Made by a program: the position numbers and the translations under genes | Notes under the pieces: generated by a model | Told to the model about the DNA's origin: nothing | Seen by the model: the letters and a program-made list of their open reading frames with translations, nothing else | Databases searched by the model: none | In this document: piece after piece, positions 1 through 28,946 of the stretch | Layout of the letters: each line of letters starts with the position of its first letter | Position numbering within the stretch: position 1 is the stretch's first letter | NCBI GenBank assembly: GCA_029260655.1 | Contig: JAJDCU010000023.1 | Location: 1 to 37,155, forward strand | Origin: Phycisphaeraceae bacterium | GTDB lineage: Bacteria; Planctomycetota; Phycisphaerae; Phycisphaerales; Phycisphaeraceae | Reading direction: 5' to 3' | DNA length: 37,155 nucleotides

Positions 1-63
1 CCCCCTACCCCCTACCCCGGAACCCCTACCCCCTAACCCCGAACCCCCAACCCCGAACCCCCA
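1..63. repeat. C-rich GGGGTT-family tandem repeat before the TPR gene
   Basis: The window opens with degenerate tandem units of the form CCCCTAACCCCGAA / CCCCCAACCCCGAA running up to the first ATG at 64. Bases 45-56 are a perfect 12-nt complement of 398-409 just after the stop of the TPR gene, so this gene is bracketed by complementary repeats. The same family occurs at 391-438, 7727-7758, 8134-8175, 12491-12530 and 28874-28908. The left edge is cut by the window. Confidence 0.8.
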
Positions 64-78
64 ATGTATACTCCCCCC

Positions 79-6660: not shown

Positions 6661-7722
6661 ATGAACAAGACCCAGCCCCAAACCGACCCCCGGCCTGACC
6701 CCGGCGCGGACCCCAAGGCCGACTCCCAAGACGAGCAGGCCCGGTTCGCCAGGCAGGTCATGGACGCCGAGGCCGATGCGATCCGACACGTCCAGGTCAC
6801 CGACGCTTTCCACCGGGCGGTGGACGTGGTGCTGGGCGCCAAGGCAGGGAACTTGGTCGTCTCCGGGCTAGGCAAGTCCGGGCTGATCGGCCAGAAGCTC
6901 ACCGCCACCTTCGCCAGTACCGGCACGCCGGCGCACTTCATGCACCCGGTCGAGGCCATGCACGGCGACCTGGGCAAGGTCCGCAAGGGCGACGCCGTGC
7001 TGATCCTTTCCTATGGCGGGAACACCGACGAGGTCGTCACCCTGGCCGAGCTATTGAAGCAAGACGAGGTCCCCGTGATCGCGATGGTCGGCAAAGAAGA
7101 CTGCGATCTGGCGCGGATCGCCACGGTGACGCTCCCGGTCGGGGATGTTGCCGAGGCCTGCCCGCTGAACCTGGCGCCCACCGCCAGCACCACCGCCATG
7201 CTCGCGCTGGGTGACGCGCTGGCCCTGGCTGTCAGCAGGCGGCGGAACTTCGGCGTCAGCGACTTTAAGAAGGTACACCCAGGCGGCGGACTGGGAAGAC
7301 AACTCATGCCCGTCGTCCACGCCATGCGGTTCAAGGCCGGGCAAAACCAGCCGCTGGTCAGCCTGGACCTGACCGTCCAAGACGCCTACGCACAGGCCGA
7401 GGCCTACGCCAAGGAGTCCGGCCTGCGCCGCGCGGGCGCGCTGCTGGTCATCGATGCTGATGGCAAGCTCGCGGGTATCGTCACCGACGGCGACCTGCGC
7501 TCGGCACTGATAAACCAAGGCCCCGACGTCTGGTCCGGCCCGATCCGAGGCGTCATGACCCAAAACCCCACCACCTTGCCCGACACCGCCCTGGTCCGAG
7601 ACGCCGTCCGCATCGTCAGAGAAAGACGCTTCGACGAGATCCCCGTCATCGACGACGCCGGCAAACCCGTCGGCCTGATCGACGTGCAAGACCTCGCGGC
7701 GCTGAAAGTGATCGAAGGGTAG
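6661..7722 (+). CDS. kdsD: D-arabinose 5-phosphate isomerase, KpsF/GutQ family
   Basis: This enzyme converts ribulose 5-phosphate to arabinose 5-phosphate, the first step of KDO synthesis for lipopolysaccharide. The 353-residue protein has a SIS domain (about 50-195: VVSGLGKSGLIGQKLTATFA, TPAHFMHPVEAMHGDLG, SYGGNTDE, CPLNLAPTASTTAMLALGDALA) and two CBS domains (about 220-283 and 295-350). I chose the ATG at 6661 (MNKTQPQ) over the in-frame start at 6604, because the residues before it look non-coding and a weak promoter-like TTGACC (6604-6609) lies there. The N-terminal 25 residues are Pro/Asp-rich and probably disordered. Its stop (TAG 7720-7722) is followed at once by ATG 7723 and the repeat-bounded S23 element, with kdsC beyond. 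Confidence 0.95.
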   Translation: MNKTQPQTDPRPDPGADPKADSQDEQARFARQVMDAEADAIRHVQVTDAFHRAVDVVLGAKAGNLVVSGLGKSGLIGQKLTATFASTGTPAHFMHPVEAMHGDLGKVRKGDAVLILSYGGNTDEVVTLAELLKQDEVPVIAMVGKEDCDLARIATVTLPVGDVAEACPLNLAPTASTTAMLALGDALALAVSRRRNFGVSDFKKVHPGGGLGRQLMPVVHAMRFKAGQNQPLVSLDLTVQDAYAQAEAYAKESGLRRAGALLVIDADGKLAGIVTDGDLRSALINQGPDVWSGPIRGVMTQNPTTLPDTALVRDAVRIVRERRFDEIPVIDDAGKPVGLIDVQDLAALKVIEG

Positions 7723-7764
7723 ATGGGGGTTCGGGATTCGGGGTTGGGGATTGGGGTTCAAGCC

Positions 7765-8133
7765 ATGGGCGTTTCCAGTTATCGGGATCTTGAAGTTTGG
7801 CAGATGGGTATAGAGTTGGTTAAGCGGGTGTATCGGTTGACTCGTGAGTTGCCGGCCGAGGAGCGATTCGCGCTTGGCGACCAGATGCGACGGGCGGTTG
7901 TTTCCGTACCCGCCAACATCGCTGAAGGCTGGGCGCGTGACCACACCAAAGAATATCTCCGGTTTATCTCGATCGCCCGTGGTTCACTGGCCGAACTGGA
8001 TACCTTCTTTACTTTGTGCATCGAGTTGGAGTATGTCCAAGCCGACCGCATGACACAGTTGACAGAGTTTTCCGACCGCCTCGGCCGAATGCTAAACACG
8101 CTACAAAGCTCTCTAAAAACCAAGATGAGGTGA
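7765..8133 (+). CDS. four-helix-bundle protein, 23S rRNA intervening-sequence (S23/IVP) family
   Basis: 122 residues from the ATG at 7765 (MGVSSYRDLEVWQMGIELVK). The family signature is clear: YRDLEVWQ, then LTRELPAEERFALGDQMRRA, VSVPANIAEGWAR, LRFISIARGSLAELDT and a C-terminal helix ending at the stop. These small proteins form pentameric four-helix bundles and are known from intervening sequences in 23S rRNA genes; their function is unclear. Reading in frame from ATG 7723 would add 14 residues encoded by the G-rich repeat (MGVRDSGLGIGVQA), which I take to be non-native. The TGA stop overlaps a GTG (8130-8132, sequence GTGA). Here the gene sits in a protein-coding operon, between kdsD and kdsC, bounded by complementary repeats. 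Confidence 0.9.
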   Translation: MGVSSYRDLEVWQMGIELVKRVYRLTRELPAEERFALGDQMRRAVVSVPANIAEGWARDHTKEYLRFISIARGSLAELDTFFTLCIELEYVQADRMTQLTEFSDRLGRMLNTLQSSLKTKMR

Positions 8134-8175
8134 CCCATCCCCAACCCCCAATCCCCAACCCCCAATCCCCAACTC
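8134..8175. repeat. C-rich repeat fused to the 5' end of kdsC
   Basis: Units CCCCAACCCCCAAT repeat between the S23 stop and the first conserved kdsC codon. Two C5 runs (8145-8149, 8159-8163) are present. In the kdsC frame it reads PIPNPQSPTPNPQ with no NTG codon. Confidence 0.85.
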
Positions 8176-8661
8176 ATCGTCTTCGATCTCGACGGCGTCC
8201 TCACCGACGGGTCGCTGATCTATGACAACCACGGCAACGAACTGAAGCGCTTCAATACCCGTGACGGATTCGGGATCCGTGCGGCGCAGTTCAGCGGGAT
8301 ACCCGTCGGCGTACTCACCGCAAGGTCCAGCGAGGTCGTGCATCGGCGGATGGAAGAACTCAAGATCGATCATTACCTGCACGGCTGCAAGGACAAGGCC
8401 GCGGGGATCGAGGCGATCGCTCAGCGGGCGCGGGTTTCTTTGGAACAAACCGCGTTCATGGGCGACGACATATTAGACCTGCCCGCATTGAAGCGCGTGG
8501 GCTACCCGATGGCTGTCGCCGATGCGGCAATCGAAGTGCTGGAGGCCGCGAAGTTCACGCCCCAAGCCAAAGGCGGCCACGGCGCAGCGCGCGAGGCGGT
8601 CGAACATATCCTGCGGGCACAAGGGAAGTGGGACGCGGTGTTGGCAAAGTTCGGCGGGTAG
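8173..8661 (+). CDS. kdsC: 3-deoxy-D-manno-octulosonate 8-phosphate phosphatase KdsC, without a canonical start codon
   Basis: KdsC removes the phosphate from KDO 8-phosphate. From 8173 the frame reads LIVFDLDGVLTDG (HAD motif I with both catalytic Asp), then FNTRDGFGIR (the KdsC family motif), VLTARSS (motif II), GCKDKAAGIEAI (motif III Lys), GDDILDLP (motif IV), MAVADA and the C-terminal GGHGAAREAVEHIL. The catalytic core is therefore complete at about 162 residues. No ATG, GTG or TTG lies in frame between the S23 stop (8131-8133) and motif I; the next in-frame start, near 8335, would lose motif I. Initiation would need ATC/CTC, TGA read-through, or a one-base change in a C5 run that would put GTG 8130 in frame. 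It may therefore be phase-variable, mis-assembled or non-functional. Family certain; expression uncertain. Confidence 0.8.
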   Translation, partial: LIVFDLDGVLTDGSLIYDNHGNELKRFNTRDGFGIRAAQFSGIPVGVLTARSSEVVHRRMEELKIDHYLHGCKDKAAGIEAIAQRARVSLEQTAFMGDDILDLPALKRVGYPMAVADAAIEVLEAAKFTPQAKGGHGAAREAVEHILRAQGKWDAVLAKFGG

Positions 8662-8669
8662 GGGGCGGA

Positions 8670-8898
8670 TAACCGCAGAGGCGCAGAGAGCGCAGAGAAA
8701 ACAGCAGAGGGGGAGTTATCCGCAGATTGCGCAGATGACGCAGATGCGGATGACAGAAAGAATATCACGGAGGGCGCGGAAACACGGAGAAGATTTCTGT
8801 GCGCAAGCACACACGCTCTCTCCTCTGCGTCATCTGCGGATCATGCGCCTTGTCTTCTCTGCTTTGTCTCCTCTGCGCACTCGGCGCCTCTGCGGTTA
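8670..8898. repeat. GCAGAG-type intergenic inverted-repeat element
   Basis: Terminal arms 8670-8697 (TAACCGCAGAGGCGC...) and 8871-8898 match as inverted repeats at 26 of 28 positions. Inside is a second pair built on CGCAGATGACGCAG (around 8730-8745 and 8824-8838). It starts 8 bases after the kdsC stop. No reading frame of substance lies inside, so it looks like a non-autonomous palindromic element of about 230 bp. Confidence 0.75.
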
Positions 8899-12490: not shown

Positions 12491-12648
12491 GGGTTGGGTT
12501 GGGGGTTAGGAGTTAGGGGTGGGGGTTGGTTATTCGCTAAACCGCAAGCGGGGGTTGAGCACGTGTGGGGTGTCGGGTATCGAGGGTCGGAGGGATTATT
12601 CTGGGGTGAACTAATAACTCATAGCTAACGGCTAACAGCTAATGGCTA
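12491..12648. repeat. composite intergenic repeat: GGGGTT-family block plus AGCTAACGGCT block
   Basis: Directly upstream of the pyrophosphorylase ATG, 12491-12530 is a GGGTTGGGTTGGGGGTTAGG-type block (C-rich on the coding strand). At 12621-12648 runs of GCTAAC/GGCTAA occur; the 13-mer ATAGCTAACGGCT (12621-12633) recurs exactly at 28934-28946 next to another GGGGTT-family block. Confidence 0.7.
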
Positions 12649-24376: not shown

Positions 24377-26209
24377 TCAGACCGTCACCCGCGCCAGCTC
24401 CCGGCTGCGGAAGATCAACCAGCCCAGGAACCCCACGCCCCCGGTCCAGAAAAGGCCCGACCACAGCGCGGCGTTTGCGAGCATCTGCCCGGGCACGAGT
24501 CGGCCGTCGGAGACCAGCGGGGTCGGGTTGTATTCGCCGAACGACGGCGCGATCAGCATGAAACCCGTGCCGATCATCTTGATAAACATCTTGAGGATGT
24601 CGTAGTACTTGCCCTCTTCGGACAGCGCACCCACCTTCCCGATCAGCCAGGCGATCTTGTGCGGAAGGGGCAGTGAGTCTTTGGGGAACGCGGCGTAGTA
24701 CTGCAACGATTCGGTGAGGTACGAGCTGCCCGCGGCGGTAAAGAAGACCAGCAGGCAGACCAGCGTCGCGACCGGGAAGCTCAGGTACGTCCCCGCCGCC
24801 AACCCGAGCATCGCCAGGAACATCAGCTTCATCCACAGAACCGCGAGTGTCCGGGCGAGGTTGGCCTCGAAGTCGCCCACCCGGTAGAGCACCTCGACCC
24901 CGTCCTTGGGGTTGAAGTTCAGAGAGGGCTGGCTTCGGCCTTCCCGGCTTGGGTTGAAGATGTCGATCGTCAGGCCCCCGGCCGAGTCGATGTCGTGCGG
25001 GTCGATGTCCAGCACGTGGAAGTTGTTTTCCGCCAACTTCAAAAGTGGGTTCCCGGTTACCGGGTCCCGGTAGATCCGGCCGTTGATCCGAACACCCATC
25101 AGCAGGAACCCGTCGGGGGTGACGCCGGCGAGCTTGGGCTTGAATCGCAGTTGGACCGACTGGTTGTATAGCTTGGCTTGATCGAGCCCGTTGAACCGGT
25201 AGCTCTCCCAGGTCTCGTTGGCGATCGTGTACCACCGGATCACCACCTGCGTCTCGACCTCGGCGGCGTCTGCGGGCTTGACCTGATCCAACGGGTCGCC
25301 CGGCTCGCCGAAGCGCTCGGGGTTTTCGTTGCGGAGTTGTTCGAGCTGTGTCTCGTACATCCGCATCAACGCATCGGGGTCCGGCGGGACCGGTTCGACG
25401 GCTTGACGCGCGACCAACACCTGGTTGCTCACCGCCAGCCGATCGATCGTGTCACGTGCGGGCTGGCTCTCCAGCATTTTCGTGAAGGTATAAATCCCCG
25501 TCCCCGCGACGCCCAACAGCAGCAGGTTCAGCAGCGTGATCCCAAACCATTTGCCAATCAAATACTCGGCCCGGGTGATCGGCTTGGTCAGGGTCAGGAA
25601 GATCTGCCGCTGGGTCTGCTCCTTGGTGATCGTCGCAACCGCCAGGAAGATCGTCATCAGGCTCAGCAGCGCGGACGTCGCGATCAGCGACCAGGTCAGG
25701 AACGAGGTGATCCGGTACTTGAGGAAGTCCTCGGTGTCGATCACGAACGGGAGCACCGCGATCAGGATCAACATCTTGATGATCGGGACCAGCGCGATCT
25801 TCATACGGATCGCCTCGTCGATCAGCGTCCTGGCCACGGCGAACACCGCGACCCCCGGCGAAAGGATCGCCCGGATAAGCCAGAGCCCGGCGTAGAACAG
25901 CAGGCCCATGGCGTAAGCGCCGGCGGTGGCGATGACCATCTCGTACCAGCCCATCGCCCTGAAAAGCAGCGCGAGCATCCCGGCGGCGGCGGTCCCCAGC
26001 AGCAAGACGCCGAACCTGCGGACCCAAGGGACATGACGCCAGAGGATCAACCCGTAGATCAGCCAGCCATCGACGAGAAGCCGACCCAGGCTTCGGATGA
26101 TCCCAGCCACCGAACCGGACCCCTGGGCGGCCAACAGCCAGCCGACGCCTTCGGTCAGGCCGACCAAGGCAATCAGGACAACCAGCCACATCTTCCAGCT
26201 TCTGAACAT
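24377..26209 (-). CDS. ABC-2-type transporter permease
   Basis: A 610-residue polytopic protein, the membrane partner of the ATPase encoded just upstream. Membrane segments lie near 7-27, 47-58, 66-84, 90-128, 141-157, 168-192 and 222-241, then a large extracytoplasmic region (about 245-465) and further segments near 470-510 and 570-600. The cytoplasmic loop EQTQRQIFLTLTKPITRAEYLIGKW in part (197-221) has the coupling-helix pattern of ABC-2 permeases, also found in the divergent permease at 32263 (NKTVLTVVSKPVSRPLFVVGK). The ATPase gene ends 42 bases before its start. Direction of transport is probably export; the substrate is unknown. Confidence 0.85.
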   Translation of the reverse strand: MFRSWKMWLVVLIALVGLTEGVGWLLAAQGSGSVAGIIRSLGRLLVDGWLIYGLILWRHVPWVRRFGVLLLGTAAAGMLALLFRAMGWYEMVIATAGAYAMGLLFYAGLWLIRAILSPGVAVFAVARTLIDEAIRMKIALVPIIKMLILIAVLPFVIDTEDFLKYRITSFLTWSLIATSALLSLMTIFLAVATITKEQTQRQIFLTLTKPITRAEYLIGKWFGITLLNLLLLGVAGTGIYTFTKMLESQPARDTIDRLAVSNQVLVARQAVEPVPPDPDALMRMYETQLEQLRNENPERFGEPGDPLDQVKPADAAEVETQVVIRWYTIANETWESYRFNGLDQAKLYNQSVQLRFKPKLAGVTPDGFLLMGVRINGRIYRDPVTGNPLLKLAENNFHVLDIDPHDIDSAGGLTIDIFNPSREGRSQPSLNFNPKDGVEVLYRVGDFEANLARTLAVLWMKLMFLAMLGLAAGTYLSFPVATLVCLLVFFTAAGSSYLTESLQYYAAFPKDSLPLPHKIAWLIGKVGALSEEGKYYDILKMFIKMIGTGFMLIAPSFGEYNPTPLVSDGRLVPGQMLANAALWSGLFWTGGVGFLGWLIFRSRELARVTV

Positions 26210-28873: not shown

Positions 28874-28946
28874 GGATTAGGGTTCGGGGTTCAGGGATCA
28901 GGGATCAGAATGCACAGACAACGAACAGGGCCAATAGCTAACGGCT
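28874..28946. repeat. composite intergenic repeat upstream of the HflK-like gene
   Basis: 28874-28908 is GGATTAGGGTTCGGGGTTCAGGG-type repeat (given by its units), C-rich on the coding strand and touching the start codon. ATAGCTAACGGCT (28934-28946) is identical to 12621-12633. The arrangement repeats the one before the pyrophosphorylase gene. Confidence 0.7.

Follow-up and report, generated by a model that had tools for sequence, protein, structure and literature searches.

The joint between kdsD and kdsC in the window (the whole stretch of 37,155 nucleotides analysed here, from a Phycisphaeraceae bacterium) raises the question of why a gene of the 23S rRNA intervening-sequence (IVS) protein family lies between two genes of lipopolysaccharide synthesis, and of where translation of the second one begins. 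On the forward strand, the upstream gene kdsD (6661..7722) encodes a KpsF/GutQ-type arabinose-5-phosphate isomerase (TIGR00393, 250 bits; SIS and CBS domains), and its TAG stop codon (7720-7722) is abutted by an ATG (7723-7725). There follow, on the same strand, a 5' arm of about 4.4 tandem G-rich 7-mers (7726..7759), an S23/four helix bundle protein gene (7765..8133; PF05635, 126.6 bits; TIGR02436, 119.6 bits) with its stop codon at 8131-8133, a 3' arm of five tandem C-rich 7-mers of the form CCCCAAC/T (8137..8175), and the body of kdsC (8173..8661), which encodes a KDO-8-phosphate phosphatase of the HAD family (TIGR01670, 141 bits). Tandem Repeats Finder resolved 7726-7756 as 4.4 copies of GGGATTC (period 7) and 8139-8173 as 5.0 copies of CCCCAAC. 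The original prediction had drawn the same layout, from kdsD stop, ATG and G-rich block through the S23 ORF to the C-rich block and HAD motif, and each part was found where it had been placed. The S23 gene more likely starts at the ATG at 7765-7767 than at 7723; the former is conserved in G001, a species of the same genus. A relative of the S23 protein has a solved structure (PDB 2gsc, E 2.8e-39). A search of the region for sigma-70-like promoters was negative, and no close relative of the S23 gene was found in phages.

The two arms are complementary to each other. Recomputation reproduced the predicted pairing of 7727-7756 with 8146-8175, which in the best ungapped register covers 30 positions (27 Watson-Crick pairs, one G-U pair and two mismatches). 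The estimated duplex energy is -53 kcal/mol, and the arm-to-arm score of 23.5 corresponds to about the 99.9th percentile among 2756 mismatched upstream/downstream pairs. This architecture recurs widely: the proposed search for S23 genes bounded by repeats found inverted arms at 76 of 125 S23 loci, sampled in the window's family and across many phyla, against less than 1% in the mismatched-flank control. In the family set, matching arms are present at 33 of 53 loci (against 0.9% of the 2756 mismatched pairs). In the cross-phylum set, defined by the best 80 matches of one peptide pattern in named genomes (Proteobacteria, Bacteroidetes, Clostridia, Planctomycetes, Verrucomicrobia, Chloroflexi, Fibrobacteres and others), they are present at 43 of 72 loci (against 0.8% of mismatched flanks). 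The best period is 7 or 8 in 73 of the 76 armed elements (63 and 10, respectively), compared with 16.5 expected from shuffled arms, and the median arm has 31 nt, 4.4 units and an energy of -49 kcal/mol. The repeat unit itself varies by element (GGGGATT, AGTTAAA, AGTGATG, GGGTCTY, TAGGCGY and others). About 40% of the S23 loci examined are armless, which counts against the reading preferred below. The two other S23 genes of the source genome, G000 (C7:58558-58869 and C59:21720-22034), carry no heptad arms, so arms are not universal to S23 genes. The C7 gene sits a few hundred bases past an apparent tRNA gene.

A known counterpart is the 23S rRNA IVS of Coxiella, in which the S23 ORF is preceded by two to three tandem heptamers, strain-variable, with RNase III cutting at the first repeat; the IVS is excised without subsequent ligation, and the S23 protein is a pentamer (PMC4990558). 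Like it, the window element has an S23-family ORF within complementary arms, tandem 7-mers 5' of this ORF (GACAGAT x2-3 in Coxiella, the likeness being drawn on the 5' arm) and a similar length (about 450 nt, versus 428 nt). Unlike the Coxiella IVS, which lies in rRNA helix 45, it is located between the protein genes kdsD and kdsC and has no Rfam match. The Coxiella S23 protein is probably not made and is decaying, whereas the S23 gene of the window is under purifying selection. The features of an rRNA IVS found in the window element are thus a PF05635 protein, complementary arms, upstream 7-mers and a sporadic spread with empty sites; insertion in 16S or 23S rRNA is absent. The S23 match, the arms, the empty sites found elsewhere and the reach of the 3' end into the first codons of the next gene support the original proposal that an S23/IVS-type element, framed by self-complementary sequence, was inserted into an operon of protein genes.

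With moderate confidence, we therefore read 7723-8175 as an S23 element with heptad arms, seated at the kdsD-kdsC joint, whose stem would be cut in the mRNA as in an IVS and whose 3' arm would encode the N-terminus of KdsC. By analogy with Coxiella, it is most likely an rRNA-IVS-like element living in mRNA, the stem of which is probably cut by RNase III; such cutting is shown for the Coxiella IVS and is only inferred here. The S23/Avd-like four-helix-bundle gene, framed by inverted 7-mer arms and lodged at the stop/start joint, would be co-transcribed with the operon. Pairing of the arms in the mRNA would form a stem of about 30 bp and set off the S23 ORF as a loop, and cutting of this stem would separate the kdsD and kdsC messages, with no ligation. 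The S23 protein, which this transcript would also encode, may bind the repeat stem (a pentamer, with 4-5 units per arm) and may make the element tolerable or aid its spread. KdsC would then be produced with an arm-encoded N-terminal stretch via an unconventional start. No nuclease or recombinase domain is known in the S23 protein, which counts against this reading.

The original prediction also held that the element may be cut out of the RNA, with the ATG at 7723 rejoined to kdsC. Removal of 7726-8172 (447 nt) does join this ATG to CTC ATC GTC and reads MLIVFDLDGVL in frame. Its length is indeed a multiple of three, but this merely reflects the common frame of S23 and kdsC. Two further observations favour removal: kdsC has no canonical in-frame start past the S23 stop, and elsewhere, in Nostoc, an S23 element lies directly after TAATG. 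However, the ATG is absent from the sister species G001, where the sequence reads TGA-TTGGGA. The comparison with relatives did reveal tight kdsD-kdsC joints (G042, G046, G048 and G030), but tight joints read stop-ATG-6 to 8 codons-CTC, not an ATG joined to the HAD motif. M-LIVFD is therefore not a natural KdsC start; the natural KdsC proteins of relatives have 5-9 residues ahead of LIVFD. Moreover, Rfam gave no match in the region at E<=1, so that no group I or group II intron core was detected, and RNA excision would not rejoin the ATG to kdsC because in known IVSs no ligation follows excision (PMC4990558). It is unlikely that M-LIVFD is restored by a cut in the RNA, and we regard the repair of kdsC by removal of the element as highly improbable. 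The related claim that the insertion lies right after an old kdsC start codon fared better. Since the S23 element of the Nostoc plasmid pNsp_c sits at TAATG with an ATG on both sides, the ATG at 7723 could be, by analogy, a relic of a former kdsC start, or it could be there by chance; it is not kept in G001.

A kdsC match was found in 93 of 101 related genomes. G001 carries the same S23 gene with similar arms and likewise has no canonical kdsC start; in neither G000 nor G001 does an in-frame ATG, GTG or TTG lie between the S23 stop codon and the HAD motif. In G013, from another genus, which has S23 and arms, the kdsC start ATG overlaps the S23 stop (TAATG), and the arm is therefore translated (MASPNPQPPNPNSVRLLVFD). 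In G019, where S23 is also present, a normal kdsC ATG lies downstream of the arm. The candidate initiation signals in the window fall within 8130..8139 on the forward strand. A GTG at 8130-8132 overlaps the S23 stop, and reading kdsC from it requires a +1 shift; an ATC at 8137-8139 is in frame. Both the GTGA and the in-frame ATC also occur in G001. Translation of kdsC could thus start at the GTG at 8130 with a +1 shift on CCC-C or at the in-frame ATC at 8137, or ribosomes could read through the S23 stop.

The missing start codon, together with the finding of a single kdsC-like match in G000, could also mean that the insertion silenced kdsC and that the locus is decaying. The pattern of substitutions argues otherwise. 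Between the two start-less species, kdsC dN/dS is 0.08 (0.05-0.09 within the genus), similar to the values in start-bearing relatives, and the 13 codons from the S23 stop to the motif have kept their length without indels at a dS of about 0.9. S23 dN/dS is about 0.05 for the same pair, and purifying selection acts on both genes. Silencing of kdsC is accordingly improbable.

The 3' arm shares the frame of kdsC and translates as PNPQSPTPNPQ. A parallel is found in the cas6|cas4 region of Dolichospermum sp. UHCC 0315A and Anabaena sp. 90, which is 99.3% identical between the two and carries the element in Anabaena sp. 90 alone. There, the 3' arm codes for a new Cas4 N-terminus (MFQNELTNSLPTVTCHLSPVT-SDDYV, versus MSLENIN-SDDYV). 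The Dolichospermum joint carries another short sequence, unrelated. By analogy with cas4, the KdsC N-terminus seems to have been rewritten by the 3' arm. In Anabaena sp. 90 (L217, 1133-1450), the 5' side of cas6|S23|cas4 has grown to about 300 nt of AGGTGAC/AGGGAAC, with few units in the 3' arm. Presence and absence were also seen among Nostoc plasmids that are 92-95% identical: one S23 element lies exactly at the TAATG stop/start overlap in pNsp_c, three other plasmids carry a different one at the next joint upstream, and neither element is present in four. One Nostoc carries a shortened S23 gene within the same plasmid backbone. No clear target-site duplication was found at the Nostoc sites, only ATG or TTCTA microhomology.

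These comparisons bear on the possibility that S23 is inherited vertically as a normal operon gene that serves the host, perhaps through hairpin-mediated mRNA regulation, its arms being slippage repeats matched by template switching. S23 orthologues do persist at the atpH|atpA joint across four genera, and S23 dN/dS is about 0.05-0.13. Residence at genus level at several sites is as compatible with resident genes as with mobile elements, and this counts against our preferred reading. On the other hand, an ordinary gene would hardly leave clean empty sites in DNA that is 92-99% identical or the shortened gene of the Nostoc backbone. Losses at the kdsD-kdsC joint speak against it as well. In a tree of kdsD and kdsC, G000 branches outside G001, G003 and G005; the simplest history within the genus is therefore loss of the element in G003 and G005 and its retention in G000 and G001. 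We give this explanation a minor share of the probability.

In the aligned arms of G000 and G001, read by eye, one paired change (A-U to G-C) is accompanied by several one-sided ones, a modest signal. At atpH|atpA (four genera) and at a second joint (four genomes), the mean arm score is 23-25 within an element and 9-10 between orthologues. Such in-step replacement speaks for the preferred reading, but stem selection and template switching can both explain it; that template switching instead of selection can keep matched arms alike weighs against that reading.

Armed S23 genes also sit at operon joints elsewhere. The flanking genes, some of which could be named, were taken from an ORF heuristic. 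By this heuristic, where the ORF upstream is co-directional, its stop codon lies within 12 nt of the start of the 5' arm in 29 of 49 cases. Among the 19 loci with both flanks scanned, the flanks are functionally coupled at ten: atpH|atpA, pdhA|pdhB, pdhB|E2, groEL|dnaJ, cheB|cheA, nuoC|nuoD (twice), sdhA|sdhB (in Capnocytophaga felis), cysD|cysN and gltB|gltD. Two further loci have named but unrelated flanks (pyrG|yidC and livF|paaK), and in the remainder one or both flanks are unnamed. Named plasmids add the joints nrdA|nrdB and cas6|cas4. At nrdA|nrdB (Nostoc edaphicum), the S23 gene is antisense to the operon, which counts against the preferred reading; with the cas6|cas4 comparison, this case shows that insertion is independent of orientation.

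Independence of orientation would be expected if the element moved as DNA, in the manner of a MITE, with the inverted heptads as the substrate of the S23 protein or of a host enzyme and the RNA stem being incidental. Dispersal of the repeats points the same way. In G013, G040 and G045, the heptads of one S23 element have 35, 140 and 69 matches (at most one mismatch), often as closely spaced inverted pairs that form hairpins without a gene. In G040 and G045, such geneless heptad hairpins occupy the kdsD-kdsC joint itself. As with MITE and REP hairpins, short inverted repeats are thus dispersed, and geneless copies share arms with gene-bearing ones. Unlike MITE and REP elements, however, these have no transposase and no clear target-site duplication, and their arms of 7-mer arrays change between elements, even between orthologous sites; terminal inverted repeats conserved between copies were not found, as the arms match within an element and differ between elements. 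The loops of the geneless hairpins also look unrelated. We give DNA-level transposition of this kind a minor share of the probability as well. The exact heptad pattern occurs in five of 51 family genomes, three of which have an S23 gene with those arms, and a second heptad pattern reaches its highest density in the two genomes that have an S23 gene with the corresponding arms. The coupling of S23 and hairpins is not strict, because G040 (91% complete) has dispersed hairpins and no S23 match. In G040 (L189, L195, L207 and others), several geneless hairpins start near the upstream stop codon, and their loops look mutually unrelated.

Heptameric repeats have been described before. Tandem heptamers are the most abundant tandem repeats in the intergenic regions of prokaryotes, with no clear clue to their function across 7006 genomes (PMC6344855). 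They include GGGAATC in Xanthomonas and GGGGATT in Nostoc, and each Xanthomonas genome contains 70-75 convergent heptamer pairs (PMC4692102), which, as intergenic tandem 7-mers, resemble the geneless hairpins found here. Searching the text of PMC4692102 for S23 or four helix bundle gave no match, and an incomplete search of the literature returned nothing tying heptamer arms to S23 genes in protein operons. We tentatively propose, as a generalization that may well fail, that S23 elements form a widespread IVS-like class in bacterial protein-coding mRNA, with 7-mer or 8-mer arms and an S23 protein recognising its own stem, that they target stop/start joints in operons for multi-subunit complexes, and that geneless copies make up a large share of the unexplained tandem heptamers. 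This would connect the S23 ORFs of rRNA IVSs, a four-helix-bundle family without an assigned function and intergenic tandem heptamers, which are treated apart in the papers cited, and would give the unexplained 7-letter repeats of bacteria a concrete, testable context. It also suggests that bacterial operon mRNAs tolerate stem-forming insertions where genes meet, and that these can rewrite the N-terminus of the next protein.

Other relationships of the protein and its repeats were considered. Avd of diversity-generating retroelements belongs to a homologous four-helix-bundle family (PMC10053308), and the window S23 protein scores 22 bits against bAvd and 35.6 bits against DivGenRetAVD. These scores are below the Avd cut-offs, the equivalog cut-off for the latter being 80. 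We do not hold that the repeat sequence strictly follows the S23 protein, and the weakness of this link counts against the preferred reading: the correlation across phyla (best 80 matches) is not significant (r = 0.12, p = 0.07), and the value within the family (r = 0.57) is inflated by orthologous sites in the set. The 8-mer arms cluster on the S23 tree, with five changes overall, which is suggestive only.

Further repeats were noted in the source genome and its relatives. Just 3' of kdsC, a gene-free inverted repeat of 9-mers (CGCAGAGAG, CGCAGATGA) spans 8670-8898 of the window, with arms at 8670-8703/8865-8898 (34 nt, 88% complementary) and 8721-8744/8824-8847. In G003 (L028), a repeat similar to this one, and different from the S23 arms, fills the kdsD-kdsC joint. 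At four G000 loci (L018, L021, L023 and L024), unpaired CCCCAAC/T blocks lie just before or inside the starts of genes that by eye resemble exbD, gcvH, lolD and queD, and some of these blocks read as PNPQ-rich N-termini. The contig opens within a C-rich 7-mer array (window 1-64; CCCCCTA/CCCCGAA) that ends just ahead of an ATG; heptad arrays may break assemblies. A short AGGGTTC 7-mer array with no paired arm nearby lies at 28874-28908, and weaker 7-mer rows occur at 12624-12648 and 25048-25071.
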